Shown here: positions 1,941 through 13,226 of the stretch, piece by piece
Numbering within the stretch: position 1 is the stretch's first letter
Layout: each line of letters begins with the position of its first letter
Source: an uncultured Planctomycetaceae bacterium
GTDB taxonomy: Bacteria > Planctomycetota > Planctomycetia > Planctomycetales > Planctomycetaceae
Direction of reading: 5' to 3'
Assembly: GCA_903858815.1 (NCBI GenBank)
Contig: CAIOKE010000077.1
Location: 1-64,000 of the forward strand
DNA length: 64,000 nucleotides
Notes under the pieces: generated by a model
Told to the model about the DNA's origin: nothing
The model's database searches: none
The model's input: only the letters and a program-made list of their open reading frames with translations
Program-made: the position numbers and the translations under genes

Positions 1941-3164
1941 CTAACGCTTCTGCTGCCGCAGATTCTCAAACAGATACAGTCCCGACTTGCCGGGACACAC
2001 CAGATCCAGATCACCATCAGCATCTATGTCCACAACAGACATCTGCAGACCCGTACCGGCTGAACCCTTCGGGAAATCCTTCAGAGCCCAGCGATCCTTG
2101 GCATTTTCCGGAGCATTCACGGCGGGGTCGCCCTGAAATACGGTGTGCTTCTGCCATGTCCCCGCCTTGCGATCATACTGAAAATAAAACACCACAGACC
2201 CGTCAGTTGCCCCAGCCTCAGATTCATGCGCGTAAACCCGCTTGCCCGTCACCAGTTCCGGTTCACCCTCACCATCCAGCTGCGCCAGCAACAGCGTATG
2301 CACCTGCGAAAATGTGTCGTCAATGGTCTGCTTCTGCCACTGACGACTGCCATCCGGCTGCTTCGTCTGCCGCAGCCAGTACAACCCGAATCCATGACCG
2401 TTGCCATACAGCACGTCCTGCAGCTGATCGCCGTCCACATCATATCCCAGAATCATGATCCCGGCTGCACCCAGCGCGAATTCTGCATGGAAACTCCAGC
2501 CACCATCAGCCAACTGTTCGTACCAGCCCTTTGGAGTAATCACATCGTTCCGCCCGTCACTGTTCAGATCACCCGCCCCCACACCATGACCAGCACCCTC
2601 TGCCCCCAGATCGCGACGAGTCCACTGCACCGGATTGCGGGATGTCAGTTCATAAAACACCACTGTGCTGCCAACATTGGGCAGGAATTCCGGCTGAGCA
2701 TCCCCGACCAGATTCACCATCTCACCCGTTTCTATATTCCCGGGTAGATCAATTTCATGTTCCTGCCACGCCGCAGTGGCAGGGCCACCAGGATTCTGCA
2801 CCCAGCCCACTCGCTTGCCAAAATAATTGCACGTCACGATGTCAGGACGTCCATCACCGTTGACATCCAGTGGCGAGTCCGCGAAGTCTTCGTGATAGTG
2901 CGGGTTCGGTCCGCTGGCCGGCACCTCGCGAACTTTGTGTCGAGTCCACAATGGAGCCTCGTACCAGGAATCACCACAGAAAATGTCGATCCGACCATCA
3001 CCGTTGAAATCCGCCGTTCCACACGCCTCGTATGGCGACTGTTCGTTGATGATGTGCTGCTTCCACTGCAAAGACCGCGGCTCGCCAGCCAGACCGGCAG
3101 ACGAGATCACCAGCACACTCAGACAGGCCGAAAAAACTGACTGCACATGTTTCTGAAACAGCAT
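1941..3164 (-). CDS. Secreted FG-GAP/VCBS repeat protein
   Basis: A 407-residue secreted protein made of FG-GAP/VCBS-type beta-propeller blades. At least five calcium-binding-like D-x-D-G-D/D-G-R-x-D segments are visible (FNGDGRIDIFCGD, VNGDGRPDIV, LNSDGRNDVI, VDGDQLQDVL, IDADGDLDLV). I chose the ATG at 3164 because it follows GGAG-ATTCCTTC and opens a signal peptide (MLFQKHVQSVFSACLSVLVISSAGLAG); the open frame continues upstream to 3404 but would overlap the divergent gene's start. Such proteins are abundant in Planctomycetes and usually extracytoplasmic, with unknown ligand. Divergent from the amidase-like/NamZ fusion at 3362. Confidence 0.85.
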   Translation of the reverse strand: MLFQKHVQSVFSACLSVLVISSAGLAGEPRSLQWKQHIINEQSPYEACGTADFNGDGRIDIFCGDSWYEAPLWTRHKVREVPASGPNPHYHEDFADSPLDVNGDGRPDIVTCNYFGKRVGWVQNPGGPATAAWQEHEIDLPGNIETGEMVNLVGDAQPEFLPNVGSTVVFYELTSRNPVQWTRRDLGAEGAGHGVGAGDLNSDGRNDVITPKGWYEQLADGGWSFHAEFALGAAGIMILGYDVDGDQLQDVLYGNGHGFGLYWLRQTKQPDGSRQWQKQTIDDTFSQVHTLLLAQLDGEGEPELVTGKRVYAHESEAGATDGSVVFYFQYDRKAGTWQKHTVFQGDPAVNAPENAKDRWALKDFPKGSAGTGLQMSVVDIDADGDLDLVCPGKSGLYLFENLRQQKR

Positions 3165-3361
3165 GAAGGAATCTCCGGCACATGTCACGACATCAGAAAT
3201 CAGCAAACTCGCCCCTTTGAACTGCAAACAGTGTCCGGAAAAACGGCCATCCATGCAACCGAGCACCTCAGCGGGCCCGCGGTGCTGTTCTGACTGCACT
3301 GCGGCAGATATACTGACGCGCTCGTTCAATTCGGCTGAAGCTTCCTGCAGGAAAACTGTGC

Positions 3362-5695
3362 ATGCGTCAATTCTCAAGTGTTTTGCCGGCCTGCGTGCTG
3401 GCATTGCTGCTGAATACAGTCTGCGTCGCTGCCACCAGCGCTCAGATACCTCCGGAAATTCCCGTCATTTCTCCACAGTCCGCCGGCTTCGATGAAACGC
3501 GCCTGAAGGTCATAGAAGAAGTGGTGCAGGAAGGCCTGTCGCAGTCTAAGATGCCAGGCTGCGTGGTCGTCGTTGGCTGCCGGACCGGTGTGGTTTACCA
3601 GGGTGCGTGGGGGTATCGCCAGACGGTTCCTCAGCAGCAGCCAATGGAGCTGACCACTGTCTTCGACCTCGCCTCGCTGACCAAGCCGATTGCCACAGCC
3701 ACCAGCATCATGCTGCTGATCCAGCAGGGGAAAATCCGTGTGGATGCTCCAGCTGCCACTTACTGGCCTGAATTTGCTCAGCAGGGGAAAGATGGCATCC
3801 TGATTCGACACCTGCTCACGCATACCGCGGGGCTGATTGCCGACAATTCCATCAATGACTACACGGGTACACCAGACGAGTCGATGGCGAAAATTGCGGC
3901 CTTGAAGCCGGTTGCAGCACCAGGCGAACAGTTCATTTACAGTGACGTTGGGTTCCTCGTTCTTGGTCGAATCGTACAACTCGTCAGCGGAAAGAATGTT
4001 CACGAGTTTTCGCGCGAGTCCGTTTTTCAGCCGCTTGGGATGACGGAAACCGGTTATCTGCCCGGTCCTGAACTGCGTGCTCGTGCCGTTGTGACCGAGC
4101 AGCGTGAGGACCGCTGGATGCAGGGTGAAGTCCATGATCCGCGTGCCTATGCACTGCAGGGAATCGCTGGGCATGCGGGCCTGTTTTCCACGGCCAGTGA
4201 TCTGGCACGCTATGCCGTCATGATGCTCAATCACGGCAGCCTTGGATCGGTACAGATTCTGCAGCCCGACACATGGAAACTGATGACCACAGCGGTGGAC
4301 GTGCCACGTGGCCGTCGAACTCCTGGGTGGGATTCCCGCACCGGCTACTCCTCAAATCGCGGCGATCTCATGACCGCAGCCGCCTTTGGACACGGTGGTT
4401 TCACCGGAACAGGCATCTGGATCGATCCACTGGCCGATCTTTTTGTCATCTTCCTCAGCAACCGTGTTCATCCGGATGGCAAAGGGCTGGTGAACCCTCT
4501 GATTGGTCGTATCGGAACAATCGCCGCAGGTGCTCGACGTACCCCGCCGAAGACACCGACTGCCCAGGTCCTGAATGGTATTGATGTGCTGCAGCGCGAT
4601 GGCTTCGCTGCCCTGCAGGGACGCAAAGTGGGACTGATCACCAATCAGACCGGGCTCAGCCGTGAGGGGGTCAGCACAGTACGACTGCTGCACTCGGCAA
4701 AGGGGGTCCGGCTGAACGCACTGTTCAGCCCCGAACATGGGCTGGAGGGACGCCTTGATATCCCGAAAATCGGCGACCAGCAGGATACCACCACAGGCCT
4801 GAAAGTGTTCAGTCTGTATGGCGAAACTCGCACACCGACCCGGGAAAGTCTGCAGGATCTCGATACGCTTGTCTTCGATATTCAGGATATCGGCTGCCGT
4901 TTCTATACCTATCTTTCAACGATGGGGAATGCCATGCAGGCTGCTGCCGATCACAATCTGCAGTTTGTGGTCCTTGACCGTGTCAACCCGGTGGGTGGCA
5001 CAGCAGTGGATGGACCAGTTCTTGAGGACGGAGAGCAGTCCTTTGTCGGCTATCACACAATTCCCGTACGACATGGCATGACAGCCGGAGAACTGGCGCG
5101 GATGTTCAGCAGTGAAAAGAACATCAAGGTCGACCTGCAGATCATTCCAGTGGCTGGCTGGCAGCGCAGTCAATGGTTCGACGAAACAGGACTCACCTGG
5201 ACAAATCCCTCGCCCAATATGCGAAACCTGAATCAGGCACTGCTTTACCCCGGTGTCGGACTGCTGGAGATGACCAACCTGTCTGTGGGACGTGGTACAG
5301 ACACTCCATTTGAAATCATCGGAGCACCGTGGCTCAAAGAGCAGCGCTTCGCCGAGCACCTGAATGCCGCAGGACTGCCGGGAATCCGTTTCATTCCCGT
5401 GCGATTCACGCCCCTGTCAGCGAGATTTCCAAATGAAGTCTGCGGCGGTGTGCAGCTGATTATTACCGATCGCCGTATGGTGGATCCACTGGCCACGGGC
5501 ATTCAGCTGATGTGCAGTCTGCAGGCCCTGCACCCAACCGACTGGCAGACAAAGAATCTGAACCGGCTGCTCAGCAGTGTCCCGGTGCGCGATGCCGTTC
5601 TGGCGGGACGCGATCGTCATGAGATTCAGCGGCTGTGGCAGACGGAGCTGGCGAAATTCATGGAGCGTCGCCAGCAGTTCCTGCTGTACGAATGA
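3362..5695 (+). CDS. Fusion of beta-lactamase-fold serine hydrolase (AmiE-like) and NamZ-type exo-N-acetylmuramidase (GH171/DUF1343)
   Basis: A 777-residue exported protein with a signal peptide (residues 1-28) and two catalytic domains. Residues ~38-395 are a class C beta-lactamase-like hydrolase: S105-L-T-K108 nucleophile motif, Y193-S-D195 and H344-G-G346 in the KTG position. Residues ~402-777 match DUF1343/GH171 NamZ: GRKVGLITNQTG, SPEHGLEG with the putative catalytic glutamate E458, DIQDIGCRFYTY and LDRVNPVGG. In Bacillus subtilis the muropeptide-rescue enzymes AmiE (beta-lactamase-fold amidase) and NamZ (exo-muramidase) are neighbouring separate genes; here the same pair of folds appears fused. 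I infer an envelope enzyme that trims peptidoglycan fragments. The serine-hydrolase domain could instead be an esterase or DD-peptidase; its substrate is not proven by sequence. Confidence 0.85.
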   Translation: MRQFSSVLPACVLALLLNTVCVAATSAQIPPEIPVISPQSAGFDETRLKVIEEVVQEGLSQSKMPGCVVVVGCRTGVVYQGAWGYRQTVPQQQPMELTTVFDLASLTKPIATATSIMLLIQQGKIRVDAPAATYWPEFAQQGKDGILIRHLLTHTAGLIADNSINDYTGTPDESMAKIAALKPVAAPGEQFIYSDVGFLVLGRIVQLVSGKNVHEFSRESVFQPLGMTETGYLPGPELRARAVVTEQREDRWMQGEVHDPRAYALQGIAGHAGLFSTASDLARYAVMMLNHGSLGSVQILQPDTWKLMTTAVDVPRGRRTPGWDSRTGYSSNRGDLMTAAAFGHGGFTGTGIWIDPLADLFVIFLSNRVHPDGKGLVNPLIGRIGTIAAGARRTPPKTPTAQVLNGIDVLQRDGFAALQGRKVGLITNQTGLSREGVSTVRLLHSAKGVRLNALFSPEHGLEGRLDIPKIGDQQDTTTGLKVFSLYGETRTPTRESLQDLDTLVFDIQDIGCRFYTYLSTMGNAMQAAADHNLQFVVLDRVNPVGGTAVDGPVLEDGEQSFVGYHTIPVRHGMTAGELARMFSSEKNIKVDLQIIPVAGWQRSQWFDETGLTWTNPSPNMRNLNQALLYPGVGLLEMTNLSVGRGTDTPFEIIGAPWLKEQRFAEHLNAAGLPGIRFIPVRFTPLSARFPNEVCGGVQLIITDRRMVDPLATGIQLMCSLQALHPTDWQTKNLNRLLSSVPVRDAVLAGRDRHEIQRLWQTELAKFMERRQQFLLYE

Positions 5696-9222: not shown

Positions 9223-9239
9223 CGCTGACGCCGTCAGCG
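9223..9239. terminator. Hairpin between convergent stops
   Basis: A perfect 7-bp inverted repeat, CGCTGAC-GCC-GTCAGCG, fills the 14-bp gap between mgsA and the converging gene and overlaps the latter's stop codon. No U-tract follows on either strand, so if it terminates transcription it is not a canonical intrinsic terminator; it may simply separate the convergent transcripts. Confidence 0.4.
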
Positions 9240-12200
9240 AGCACGCTGATGGCGTCTGATGGCTGTCAGCTGAGCATCCAGCTCTTTCATCGGAATGGCT
9301 TTCCCCTCGCCATAGGAAAGCGTCGAATTCAGATTGCCCGGATGGACCTCCTGAACCTGATCCAGCTCCACGACCAGCCGCTGCATCCACTCAGGAGGCT
9401 CGATACCGGATCCATGTCGAGTCTTCATAAAGGCGGAGATTCGCGCACGAAGCGTCTGGAAAATACCGTCTGTCTCTGCGACAGCACGCCCTGCGGCACC
9501 CGGTATCGCTTTGGGAACAAGAGCCGCAATCGCATTCTGCTCCAGCAGACCCACAATCTGCTCATTCACATGATCGTGCAGCGATGGAAGCTTGACACCG
9601 TATTCAACCTCCAGCTCGCGCAGCGTCTCACACATCCCTGCTGCCGTCTCGGCAGTCTGCTTTGAAACTTCGGCCACCACCGCTTCTGCAACATCCGTTT
9701 CTGACTGCCTGACCAGAACTTCATGCATCAGTTGCCACGGGACATACTCCCACTCAAAGCGATCATACATCGCCTCCATCTGCAGAAAATCCAGCAGACA
9801 GTACAGACGACTGCCGTAATCGCTGTAGGTGGTCGTCGTGTTGTATTCCATGAATCGATCAAAATTATCGATCAGACACTCCACGACAAACTCAGTAATC
9901 TCAGCGGCTTCTTCCATATCAAGCTCACCGCTCTCAAGATCATCCAGCACAGGGACACTTTGAGTCTGCCCAAGAGTCTCCTCAAGCTCCTCAAACATCG
10001 TCCCCACACCCTGATGCAGAATCGTTCGCAGATTCCCCAGCGTCAGGAACCGAGTATGAAACAACTCCTCGCCATAACGCGTGATGAACTCACGCACAGC
10101 AGCGGCAAACTTATCGTCAAACAGATCCTCGACAATCGATAATCGCATCGATTTGCTGTGCCTGCTCCACATTCGACAGTATGCTGTGGCCAGTTCCAGA
10201 ATGCGTTTGAAGACAGATTTCGTACGCATGCTTCCCGTGACTCGCATGCGACTGCACGACTTCAGCACAGCTTCCGTGGAACTCAGCAGACCCAGTCGAA
10301 ACAGGCGATCAAATTCCGTCACCGCCTGCCCGGATGGACGCGAATTGCGCTCCATCCTCATCGCTGTGTCCAGCAACAGAAAGGTCTCTGTCAGCAGACC
10401 CAGACGCGGCAACTGACCCAGCAGCACTCGCAGCACCGCCTGCAGGGTCCGAGCCTTCAGGATGGCTGCCGGATGACCACCATTCTCAAATGGTACATAC
10501 AACAATGGGCGACGACTCAGCTCCTGGATAAATGCCGGGAATACCTGCTGAATATCCTCCGCACGATTACCAAACATCGCTGAAAATGTCTGCGAAATCA
10601 GCTGATCGAGGCGTTCTGATTCACGGTTTTTCTCTGTCGCCCCGACGACCGCTTCAATCAGTCGCTCCGCCATCAGGAATTCCACAGTCGTCGACAGGGC
10701 ATTCTGCATCAGCAGAAATCGACCCTGCATCTGAATGTCATATTCCACATTGCTCTCAACACCACCACTCTGAGCCTTCACCTCGTATTCACGCACTTCA
10801 TTGATCAACACCTGCAGACCCTGCAGCCGTCCACGAATGGCCACCAGCCAGTCCCGCATCAGCTCCCTGCGTTCCGGAGTTACATCGGTCCCCTGCCGGG
10901 ACACCCAGACCGCAGCAATACTCCAGAGAGAACCAACGGTGTGCAGAAACTTCAGTCGCGGTTCAATCTGCCGATACAGAATCTCAAACTCCGTCGTACC
11001 CGGAGCCCCGGTCGACGAATCCATGGTGTCACCCACGTTCCCATCGTCCGTCGAATCTCGATAGGTGACGTCATCCCACGCCGCCGCCAGCGTATTCTGC
11101 TCTTCATCGTCCGCGTCAAACAAATGCTCCAGATCCAGCTCTTCCTGCTTCGCACCACGCCGGTCCGTCTTCCGCTGCTCAACATACGTACTCAGCTGCG
11201 GAACTTCCCAGAACTCACCCGCATTCGCCTCCATAAAGGCAAACAATCGCCTGACACCCTTCCAGCGCAACTCCGGTTCCGCCTGCTGACAGACACAGGT
11301 CAACAGACGATGCAGCAGATTGTGGATCGAATGCGGACCGGTCTCCAGCGGCACTGAATCCGCCATGCCAAGCCACTGCATCAGCAGCCCCATCGCAGCG
11401 ACATGGTCCTGCCTGTCCAGCAGCGAATTCACCACCTGCGCAAAACCCGAGGGTGACCTGAACTCATCAACATGCTGACGCCAGAACGAAATGTCTCCGG
11501 CCGCTTCACCCGCCTCACGCCACCGCGCCAGCGCCCGCGCGACCAGAATCGCACCCTCTACCGAACGCTGCCCCTCAACCTTCAGCAGATCATGCACCGT
11601 CGTCGTGGCATATGCGTCCCACTGCTCCGCCAGTACGCGAAAACGGCCCAGCACTTCGTCATGGATATCCGCTCTGCCCGATGCCGCCGCTTCACTCATA
11701 ATCAGAGAACAACTGTCAAACAATCGCCCCATCAACTCCAGCAGCACGTCCACACGCGAATCCGGGATCGAATCCTCACGCGCAGAAAACAACGGGAATA
11801 GCCCCTGAAACCCCAGAATGTTCCACGGATCAACAATGCCACCGCAGTCAATTCCACGATGCAGCAGCTCAATCGACTCCATCATCAGACGGGCAGCCTC
11901 GTCCGGCAGCCCCGCCTTCAACTGCCGCGGAATTGCCACCAGTCGCGCCGAAATCTCGGACTCAAAACGCGCCGCCAGACACGGGATGACCGCCGCCTCC
12001 TCCCGACTGGCCTGCTCATACCCCATTCGAGCAAACACCCACGACAGATGACGATGCTGAACCTGATCCGCTCCGTATTTCGCCAGATACATATTCAGTT
12101 CGTGCCGCACATGCCCGAACGGCTGCCGAGTCTGCTCAGCCAGCCTCCGCAGACGCGCACCACGCTCGCCCGTCGCCAGCCCCAGCAACATCTCATAAAA

Positions 12201-13226
12201 CCCATCTCGCTGGCGAGCCACCATCGGCAGCAATGTCGTCAGGGAAACCGATGAATCCCACGTCTGCGGACCCGATCCACTGATCGATGCCCCCATCAGA
12301 ATCGTGCCCGTCAGCACCACCGCAGCATCGTACACTCGCTCACTTTCAATCGTGCCCCGACGACCGCCGGCAACGGGCGAATGAATCCAGGCGACCAACG
12401 CATCCAGAATCAGGCGTCGCACAACAAACCGACGGTAAAACCCCTTCGTATCAATCTCATCCGGATCCCACTCGCCAAAAATGTAGTTCGTTCGCTTCGT
12501 CACCGGATGCAGGTGGTCATGTGATCGCACATCCAGCACCAGCTCACTCAGTCTGCCAAACGAAAAATGCGTGCCCTCCAGCAGCGACTCCGGCAATGTC
12601 CGAATGAAGCTGATCGCCTCGCTGATCAGTACCTGATAAGGACCAGCAGCGACACCCACCTCCGCCATATACAACGGCACCGGACAGAATCGCTCGTGCA
12701 GGTACGTCTGAGCTTTCCGCCCGTTCTCCAGCACCGCTACAGGTCGATAACCGACAAATTGATTGAGCCGCCGAACAACCTCCTGCACCGCATCTCCGGA
12801 TGACAGCGCCGGTCGCTCAGCACGCACTGCCAGAGTCGTTTCAAACATACGAGCCAGCAGCAGCGGACTGAAAAAATCCCCATCCGAACAGTGTGCCAGC
12901 AGATCCGAATGAAACTGCCTGTAACACGGTAACACCTCACTCAAAGTCCGGCCAATCATCAGTGTCGCCTGCTCTGTCACTGCAAACGCACCAGCGCCAG
13001 ACTTCTGCAGCACAACCAGACTGCCCTCCAGAAGCCTCTGCAGGTCTGACGGACCACTGCCAGCCCGTCCGCTGACAAACAACTCATTTATGCAGATCCG
13101 AAAGCGAGCACTCGCAGTGCCATCAGACAAATTCAGATAACCCAGCAGATCACGCAAACACTCGTCCTCTGTCGGATCTGGGACCGAAGAAAAAAGTTCT
13201 GACTGTTTTCGAGACCCGCTGTTCAC
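9234..13226 (-). CDS. Large helical hypothetical protein (1330 aa)
   Basis: I do not recognise this protein. It is 1330 residues with no signal peptide, no transmembrane segment and no nucleotide-binding motif that I can see. The sequence is rich in amphipathic helices (many L-x2-L-L and R-L-L-x-L patterns) interrupted by an acidic stretch (residues ~690-740, DADDEEQNTLAAAWDDVTYRD...). The only start available before the upstream stop is GTG at 13226, preceded by GGGGCGGGC. Downstream it converges on mgsA; upstream (92 bp) and on the same strand is RNase Y, so cotranscription is possible. It is most likely a lineage-restricted cytoplasmic scaffold or repeat protein, by exclusion only. Confidence 0.75.
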   Translation of the reverse strand: MNSGSRKQSELFSSVPDPTEDECLRDLLGYLNLSDGTASARFRICINELFVSGRAGSGPSDLQRLLEGSLVVLQKSGAGAFAVTEQATLMIGRTLSEVLPCYRQFHSDLLAHCSDGDFFSPLLLARMFETTLAVRAERPALSSGDAVQEVVRRLNQFVGYRPVAVLENGRKAQTYLHERFCPVPLYMAEVGVAAGPYQVLISEAISFIRTLPESLLEGTHFSFGRLSELVLDVRSHDHLHPVTKRTNYIFGEWDPDEIDTKGFYRRFVVRRLILDALVAWIHSPVAGGRRGTIESERVYDAAVVLTGTILMGASISGSGPQTWDSSVSLTTLLPMVARQRDGFYEMLLGLATGERGARLRRLAEQTRQPFGHVRHELNMYLAKYGADQVQHRHLSWVFARMGYEQASREEAAVIPCLAARFESEISARLVAIPRQLKAGLPDEAARLMMESIELLHRGIDCGGIVDPWNILGFQGLFPLFSAREDSIPDSRVDVLLELMGRLFDSCSLIMSEAAASGRADIHDEVLGRFRVLAEQWDAYATTTVHDLLKVEGQRSVEGAILVARALARWREAGEAAGDISFWRQHVDEFRSPSGFAQVVNSLLDRQDHVAAMGLLMQWLGMADSVPLETGPHSIHNLLHRLLTCVCQQAEPELRWKGVRRLFAFMEANAGEFWEVPQLSTYVEQRKTDRRGAKQEELDLEHLFDADDEEQNTLAAAWDDVTYRDSTDDGNVGDTMDSSTGAPGTTEFEILYRQIEPRLKFLHTVGSLWSIAAVWVSRQGTDVTPERRELMRDWLVAIRGRLQGLQVLINEVREYEVKAQSGGVESNVEYDIQMQGRFLLMQNALSTTVEFLMAERLIEAVVGATEKNRESERLDQLISQTFSAMFGNRAEDIQQVFPAFIQELSRRPLLYVPFENGGHPAAILKARTLQAVLRVLLGQLPRLGLLTETFLLLDTAMRMERNSRPSGQAVTEFDRLFRLGLLSSTEAVLKSCSRMRVTGSMRTKSVFKRILELATAYCRMWSRHSKSMRLSIVEDLFDDKFAAAVREFITRYGEELFHTRFLTLGNLRTILHQGVGTMFEELEETLGQTQSVPVLDDLESGELDMEEAAEITEFVVECLIDNFDRFMEYNTTTTYSDYGSRLYCLLDFLQMEAMYDRFEWEYVPWQLMHEVLVRQSETDVAEAVVAEVSKQTAETAAGMCETLRELEVEYGVKLPSLHDHVNEQIVGLLEQNAIAALVPKAIPGAAGRAVAETDGIFQTLRARISAFMKTRHGSGIEPPEWMQRLVVELDQVQEVHPGNLNSTLSYGEGKAIPMKELDAQLTAIRRHQRAR

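Follow-up and report, generated by a model that had tools for sequence, protein, structure and literature searches.

The locus raises the question of what a single protein does with a β-lactamase-fold hydrolase and a NamZ (GH171) module joined in one chain, and whether it takes part in the handling of peptidoglycan-derived MurNAc. It lies in a stretch of 64,000 nucleotides from an uncultured Planctomycetaceae bacterium (the window), where the open reading frame list and its translation gave a 777-aa ORF with an ATG start (Table 1). An earlier note on this DNA had described it as a class C β-lactamase-fold hydrolase with S-x-x-K, Y-S-D and H-G-G motifs fused to a NamZ/GH171 domain with PEHG. 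Indeed, SLTK, YSD, HGG and PEHG are all present, and domain search with Pfam placed Beta-lactamase (PF00144, 226 bits against a cut-off of 27), NamZ_N (PF07075, 280 against 26.9) and NamZ_C (PF20732, 159 against 25) far over their cut-offs. In alignments, S105, K108, Y193 and H344 each occurred in 48/48 fusion domains, and the PEHG glutamate, which we take to be the catalytic residue of NamZ, in all 65 fusion rows. The name NamZ is that given to the family by Pfam, and NamZ activity is the exo release of MurNAc. The N-terminus of the fusion (MRQFSSVLPACVLALLLNTVCVAATSAQ) is hydrophobic and, judged by eye only, resembles a Sec signal, suggesting that the protein is probably exported.

Table 1 Features of the fusion gene in the window
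Feature	Position	Strand	Basis
Predicted AmiE-like serine hydrolase / NamZ (GH171) fusion	3362..5695	+	ORF and Pfam
Putative Sec signal peptide, about aa 1-27	3362..3442	+	translation judged by eye
AGGA, Shine-Dalgarno-like, 9 bases 5' of the ATG	3349..3352	+	by eye
β-Lactamase-fold (PF00144) domain, predicted AmiE-like, aa 52-374	3515..4483	+	Pfam, trees, structure comparison
SLTK 105-108, with S105 as the expected nucleophile and K108 (S-x-x-K)	3674..3685	+	motif, alignment
YSD 193-195, with Y193	3938..3946	+	motif, alignment
VHDPRA...GIAGHAG, signature form of the AmiE/PBP4B/fusion set	4130..4180	+	alignment; whole signature missing from outgroup proteins
HGG 344-346, with H344	4391..4399	+	motif, alignment
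Interdomain linker, aa 395-400, least confident stretch of the model	4544..4561	+	AlphaFold2 model
NamZ_N (PF07075), aa 423-623	4628..5230	+	Pfam
PEHG 457-460, with conserved Glu458	4730..4741	+	motif, alignment
NamZ_C (PF20732), aa 627-776	5240..5689	+	Pfam

The divergent 5' neighbour is an FG-GAP gene by Pfam, whose longest ORF (1941-3404) overlaps the start of the fusion and whose true start is probably internal to that ORF; the 3' neighbour is a DUF7133/HEAT/cytochrome c gene. Neither neighbour points to cell-wall work. A Planctomycetaceae MAG (L102) has homologues of the fusion and of both flanking genes with the order kept, its hydrolase and NamZ parts being 71% and 75% identical to those of the window. 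Since this relative keeps the fusion between homologues of both flanking genes, the joining of the two domains is not a matter of chance. Elsewhere in the window, a 1330-aa ORF at 9234-13226 on the reverse strand had zero Pfam matches at E 0.001.

An AlphaFold2 model, built with the window sequence and 36 relatives from the named loci as input, reached a mean pLDDT of 91.2 and a pTM of 0.56, a value at which the mutual orientation of the domains is uncertain, and channelling is not claimed. Both modules matched solved folds in this check by structure prediction, which the earlier note had proposed. The part from about aa 396 to 777 matched the DUF1343 structure 4k05 (Z 49.7, 2.0 Å over 373), with 4jja at Z 39.8, and the part from about aa 32 to 398 matched the β-lactamase-fold enzyme EstG (7u1b, Z 41.4, 2.3 Å over 342), with the family VIII esterase 4ivi at Z 39.6 and AmpC at about Z 34; matches were also searched by Foldseek. 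As modelled, the fold by itself does not separate amidase from esterase for the hydrolase domain.

The closest solved-structure matches of this domain are esterases (EstG and a family VIII carboxylesterase), in line with the possibility that it is a family VIII-type esterase that aids NamZ, be it by deacetylating O-acetylated MurNAc or through some unrelated esterase activity; a muramidase, too, would benefit if O-acetyl groups were taken off. The trees point elsewhere, however. In a 73-row tree, a 61-row set of 48 fusions, six Bacillales AmiE-operon proteins (standing in for B. subtilis AmiE, itself outside the trees), the GH3-linked domain of locus L145, four acidobacterial neighbours, a haloarchaeal protein and E. 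coli PBP4B was separated with an SH-aLRT support of 98 from 12 outgroup proteins (AmpC, AmpH, another Bacillus protein and nine paralogues of the window's genome), several long outgroup branches being flagged by the tree program in the hydrolase trees. The set was retained (32 rows, 95/88) in a 44-row tree to which the solved esterases EstG, 4ivi and 7pp3 as well as Pab87 were added, and the three esterases formed a separate clade (97/96) with the own-genome paralogues L092 and L094. Within the set, the fusion hydrolases are not one clade distinct from AmiE, and AmiE-like rows stand among or beside some of them. D259 of V-x-D was found in 61/61 set members and 4/12 outgroup proteins, H271 in 55/61 set members, and A-G at 272-273 as well as H344 in 61/61, while the combination of V-x-D, A-G 272-273 and H344 occurred in 0/12 outgroup proteins. 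The VHD...GHAG signature was also missing in the four solved esterases whose alignments were inspected.

In phmmer comparisons with the window hydrolase domain, the Bacillales AmiE-operon proteins reached 126-216 bits (L168 126, L149 216), E. coli PBP4B 145, own-genome paralogues at most 115 and solved chains at most 122, the best of these being an esterase. Because the L168 protein scarcely exceeds the solved esterase, the AmiE-like assignment rests on the trees and the motif, not on scores. The class C β-lactamase model NF033085 gave 61.8 bits, under its curated cut-off of 415. An ordinary esterase or β-lactamase was rejected on the trees, the motif and this score. A grouping with esterases, named in the earlier note as what would overturn its reading, was not what we found: the AmiE-operon proteins share the set of this domain, as does E. 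coli PBP4B, and the family VIII carboxylesterase lies in a separate clade. An esterase in the service of NamZ is accordingly a very unlikely explanation, and comparison at the sequence level supports a hydrolase that is AmiE-like, not an esterase. The physical link of AmiE-type enzymes to NamZ or NagZ takes the form here of fusion to NamZ.

PBP4B, a weak DD-carboxypeptidase, brings in another alternative, in which the hydrolase would be a PBP4B-like DD-carboxypeptidase or endopeptidase trimming stem peptides, and NamZ would act on peptide-bearing or otherwise denuded MurNAc. The PBP4B model NF002968 is the best NCBIfam match of the hydrolase (166.2 bits), and in the 44-row tree PBP4B itself belongs to the set, where it pairs at 100/100 with the AmiE-operon protein of L168. 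However, that score is under the curated cut-off of 385, the L168 gene stands directly before GH3 and NamZ genes, and yfeW, which encodes PBP4B, directly follows murQ-murP in the murR / murQ-murP-yfeW locus of E. coli, so that PBP4B may itself be a counterpart of AmiE. We regard a stem-peptide-trimming hydrolase as unlikely.

The surroundings of relatives were analysed in 64 fusion loci (22 planctomycete and 42 other, the window itself outside), with partners sought within 6 kb. With labels from phmmer queries taken from the same loci (in part self-matches) and a sample then confirmed by Pfam or NCBIfam, at least one partner (SSF symporter, MurQ, BadF-type kinase or GH3) was found in 21/64. 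MurQ occurred in 4/22 planctomycete and 7/42 other loci (11/64), the kinase in 3/22 and 1/42, and GH3 in 1/22 and 1/42; SSF occurred in 7/22 and 8/42 (in 5 and 2 of these as an abutting gene of the same strand), these being raw, uncontrolled counts for a common family. MurQ is near single copy (one per genome among the listed genomes with a match), and the chance of meeting it in 14 kb of a 5 Mb genome is about 0.3% as calculated by hand. Among NamZ-only ORFs, 25/87 had at least one partner within 6 kb (SSF 11, MurQ 11, kinase 9, GH3 12). Since this compares with 21/64 for the fusion, the clustering links NamZ, fused or unfused, to MurNAc use and is not special to the fusion.

A MurNAc cluster of SSF, kinase and MurQ adjoining the fusion was not found in the window but is present in three relatives (L041, L046 and L058), where MurQ and the kinase run divergently to SSF-fusion. 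A single open frame of L041 (1294-3237, reverse strand) holds both MurQ and the BadF/BadG kinase, and a second NamZ follows in this locus. L077, which is near a contig end, has a clear MurNAc cluster layout in which no kinase was seen, L106 has MurQ-SSF-GH3-fusion all in one direction (MurQ at 350 bits, its cut-off being 302), and L039 and L108 show the cluster layout with two unfused NamZ. Six Bacillales loci (L148, L149, L156, L166, L168 and L176) have an AmiE-like gene, a GH3 gene (confirmed by Pfam/NCBIfam) and a NamZ gene in a row. For the cluster kinases of L039 and L111, GlcNAc kinase was the sole NCBIfam match (102 and 127 bits against a cut-off of 370); a MurK role is suggested by their context, and GlcNAc may be their substrate. 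A further cluster lies on the Halorussus limi plasmid NZ_CP096661.1 (L185, 4508-13074), with genes annotated as anhydro-MurNAc kinase, HAD hydrolase, peptidoglycan recognition protein, serine hydrolase, glycoside hydrolase, DUF1343 and nagZ. To our knowledge, Archaea, the domain of this haloarchaeon, are without peptidoglycan.

Across 294 planctomycete genomes, MurQ (TIGR00274, E <= 1e-60) was present in 149 (107 over the curated cut-off). It was found in 22 of the 23 fusion genomes (20 over the cut-off; Fisher p 2.8e-6, uncorrected for relatedness), G177 being the sole one without it and G109 and G203 falling just below the cut-off. Uncorrected for phylogeny, the corresponding figures were 42/56 for NamZ genomes (p 5e-5) and 20/33 for genomes with NamZ but no fusion (p 0.27); given the latter, the association with MurQ is carried by the fusion genomes. 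Within the window's family (17 genomes), MurQ occurred in 8/8 NamZ genomes and 0/9 NamZ-less genomes, likewise uncorrected for phylogeny, and within each of two genera (g2 and g4) genomes differ in MurQ/NamZ presence. G024, which belongs to the eight, carries NamZ in unfused form only. Partner clusters and the 22/23 fusion genomes with MurQ thus support, by genome context, the role in muropeptide or MurNAc metabolism that had been suggested for the fusion.

The window's own genome (6.39 Mb, 373 contigs, 99.4% complete) contains MurQ on contig C71 (382 bits), a single PF01869 kinase on C363 (40% identical over 322 aa to the cluster kinase of G024), an SSF symporter on C311 (60% identical to that of the G024 cluster), which a second NamZ directly follows, and MurA (478 bits). 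The MurNAc pathway parts lie on separate contigs, and none adjoins the fusion in the window. Genome search did not find AnmK, Amidase_3, or a GH3, GH20 or PF01832 glucosaminidase. With AnmK not found, MurQ would depend on a supply of free MurNAc, the product expected of NamZ.

We consider it likely that the fusion is an exported two-step muropeptide enzyme that prepares MurNAc for uptake and feeds the symporter, the kinase and MurQ. In the first step, the AmiE-like domain, through an acyl-enzyme involving Ser105, Lys108 and Tyr193, would cut the MurNAc-L-Ala amide and free the stem peptide; in the second, the NamZ domain would take peptide-free MurNAc off the non-reducing end. A sodium:solute symporter would then import MurNAc, a BadF/BadG-type kinase would phosphorylate it, and MurQ would yield GlcNAc-6-P. 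Fusion would hold the first two steps at a fixed ratio and place. This reading is held less firmly because the specificity of the kinase is less sure and NamZ-only loci cluster equally often. Its main weakness is that no glucosaminidase of the families searched for (GH3, GH20, PF01832), which would expose MurNAc at chain ends, was found, and a genome without a detectable member of these families raises the question of how the glycan chain is opened. Even so qualified, it would turn two family names into a pathway of one-protein extracellular MurNAc release, symporter, kinase and MurQ in planctomycetes and some other phyla.

A compatible alternative concerns the source of the substrate: the enzyme might serve the scavenging of, or predation on, foreign walls as a nutrient, not the recycling of the cell's own wall, to which we give somewhat less than an even chance. 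The genome's own MurA makes MurNAc import unnecessary, MurQ is a catabolic enzyme, the joint absence of NamZ and MurQ from 9/17 family members fits a dispensable nutrient trait, and a haloarchaeon carries an unfused version of the gene set. On the other hand, B. subtilis applies similar enzymes to its own turnover products (PMC5061867), and no result sets the substrate source apart. The proposal of a dedicated turnover enzyme therefore stands as far as the MurNAc/muropeptide role indicated by context is concerned, while turnover is not told apart from foreign-wall scavenging. The division of one family into eight genomes and nine makes the trait open to growth tests on MurNAc or muropeptides.

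The fusion is not confined to planctomycetes. The planctomycete survey called for in the earlier note found NamZ in 56/294 genomes and the fusion, with the hydrolase N-terminal in each, in 23 of the 53 NamZ genomes examined (the window's included; G015, G179 and G246 left out), some NamZ ORFs reaching contig ends where a fusion may be cut off. Beyond this survey, 42/80 named NamZ loci carry it, a biased rate, since the best 80 of at least 591 candidates were chosen by their resemblance to the NamZ of the window. These best 80 include fusions from Planctomycetota, Acidobacteriota, Verrucomicrobiota, Armatimonadota, Pseudomonadota, Myxococcota, Rokubacteria and one other bacterium, which rules out restriction to planctomycetes; Burkholderia and Cupriavidus plasmids also carry the fusion. 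In the NamZ tree, from whose 152 rows 19 partial or near-duplicate loci were removed by choice before counting, 50/50 fusion rows fell in one 75-row set (98), mixed with 25 single NamZs. The 13 fused/unfused label changes required on this tree point to a probable history of repeated loss or gain of the fusion.

The architecture was moreover listed in 2008, when Table 3 of one paper gave DDPept-DUF1343 for a single protein, YP_439122.1 (PMC2605481). Apart from that table, no title among the literature matches listed, mostly openly licensed papers, describes the fusion or its MurNAc gene cluster, and earlier reports are possible. Likewise, the gene adds little to what is known of planctomycete peptidoglycan, on which it had been thought informative, as peptidoglycan was demonstrated in planctomycetes in 2015 (PMC4432640). 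That the fusion is a recycling or scavenging enzyme of a pairing already known from other phyla, not a unique one, is well supported.

Several variants were seen along the way. The long open frames of L074 (7934-11656, reverse strand) and L077 (2615-6781, forward strand) carry FG-GAP repeats by Pfam before, and in frame with, the hydrolase-NamZ fusion, and the window has an FG-GAP gene as a neighbour; in L047 and L181, whose open frames are likewise long, Pfam gave no additional domain at the N-terminus. In a Terriglobia MAG, a GH3-GH3_C-β-lactamase fusion (L145, 2779-5925, reverse strand) is divergent from a NamZ gene. One phage-collection record with at least 80% query coverage, MT837132.1 (2857-5240; 85% of the query in two pieces, 40% identity), is labelled Bacteriophage sp. 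from human faeces and is possibly mislabelled bacterial DNA.

Another form of NamZ has PQHG in place of PEHG, with Gln at the site of the conserved Glu, in 13/152 aligned sequences and 0/65 fusions (L032, L039, L041, L047, L058, L061, L067, L068, L074, L077, L104, L107 and L108). Twelve of them were placed in the tree, where these sequences, all of planctomycete origin, make up a single clade (93). An intact NamZ or a fusion lies in the same locus as nine of the 13 (L039, L041, L047, L058, L074, L077, L104, L107 and L108), and the copy of the window's own genome (L032, 5843-7165, on C311) follows the SSF symporter. Positions 430 and 431 are changed in 13/13 and position 487 in 12/13 (to Ser in 11), changes that suggest a new role, not decay. 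In small numbers, no GH3 gene was seen in the 13 PQHG loci, and no PQHG copy in L076 or L106, the two loci where GH3 adjoins the fusion. It is conceivable, though quite unlikely, that the planctomycete fusion works with a dedicated PQHG NamZ paralogue that has lost exo-muramidase chemistry, as a MurNAc-binding partner handing the sugar to the symporter or as a replacement of NagZ, the latter role being considered since the window's genome shows no GH3 form of NagZ. Wall glycan would then be degraded by two NamZ forms without a known glucosaminidase.

One of the systems closest to the proposed pathway is found in Bacillus, where amiE-nagZ-ybbC, with YbbC presumably being NamZ, stands with murQ-murR-murP and likewise combines an AmiE-like serine hydrolase and NamZ in a pathway that ends with MurQ. 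In Bacillus, however, AmiE and NamZ are separate genes whereas they are fused in the window, the importer is the PTS MurP whereas an SSF symporter and a BadF-type kinase would fill this place here, and NagZ (GH3) is present whereas GH3 was not found in the window's genome. In B. subtilis, extracellular muropeptides are processed first by one and then by the other of AmiE and NagZ (PMC5061867). E. coli PBP4B (YfeW) shares the set and the signature of the fusion hydrolase and a place after murQ-murP, but has a single domain and, when compared with the hydrolase domain of the window, reaches 145 bits where the AmiE-operon protein of L149 reaches 216. In Tannerella forsythia, a transporter, MurK and MurQ form a MurNAc operon (murTKQ) that resembles the proposed pathway, together with exo-muramidases, in serving MurNAc; it differs in that the parts of the source consulted mention no fused amidase and that the organism requires external MurNAc (PMC10465942). 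YP_439122.1 has the same two Pfam domains in one protein, but its entry is a single protein, left out of that paper's section on multi-domain S12 proteins, and predates the renaming of DUF1343 to NamZ (PMC2605481). RmNag3 of Rhodothermus marinus, a GH3 N-acetylglucosaminidase with a β-lactamase domain, differs from the fusion in having GH3 instead of NamZ and its β-lactamase domain at the C-terminus, and is similar to it in joining a hexosaminidase to a β-lactamase-fold domain, an arrangement that its authors ascribed to peptidoglycan turnover (PMC6987092).
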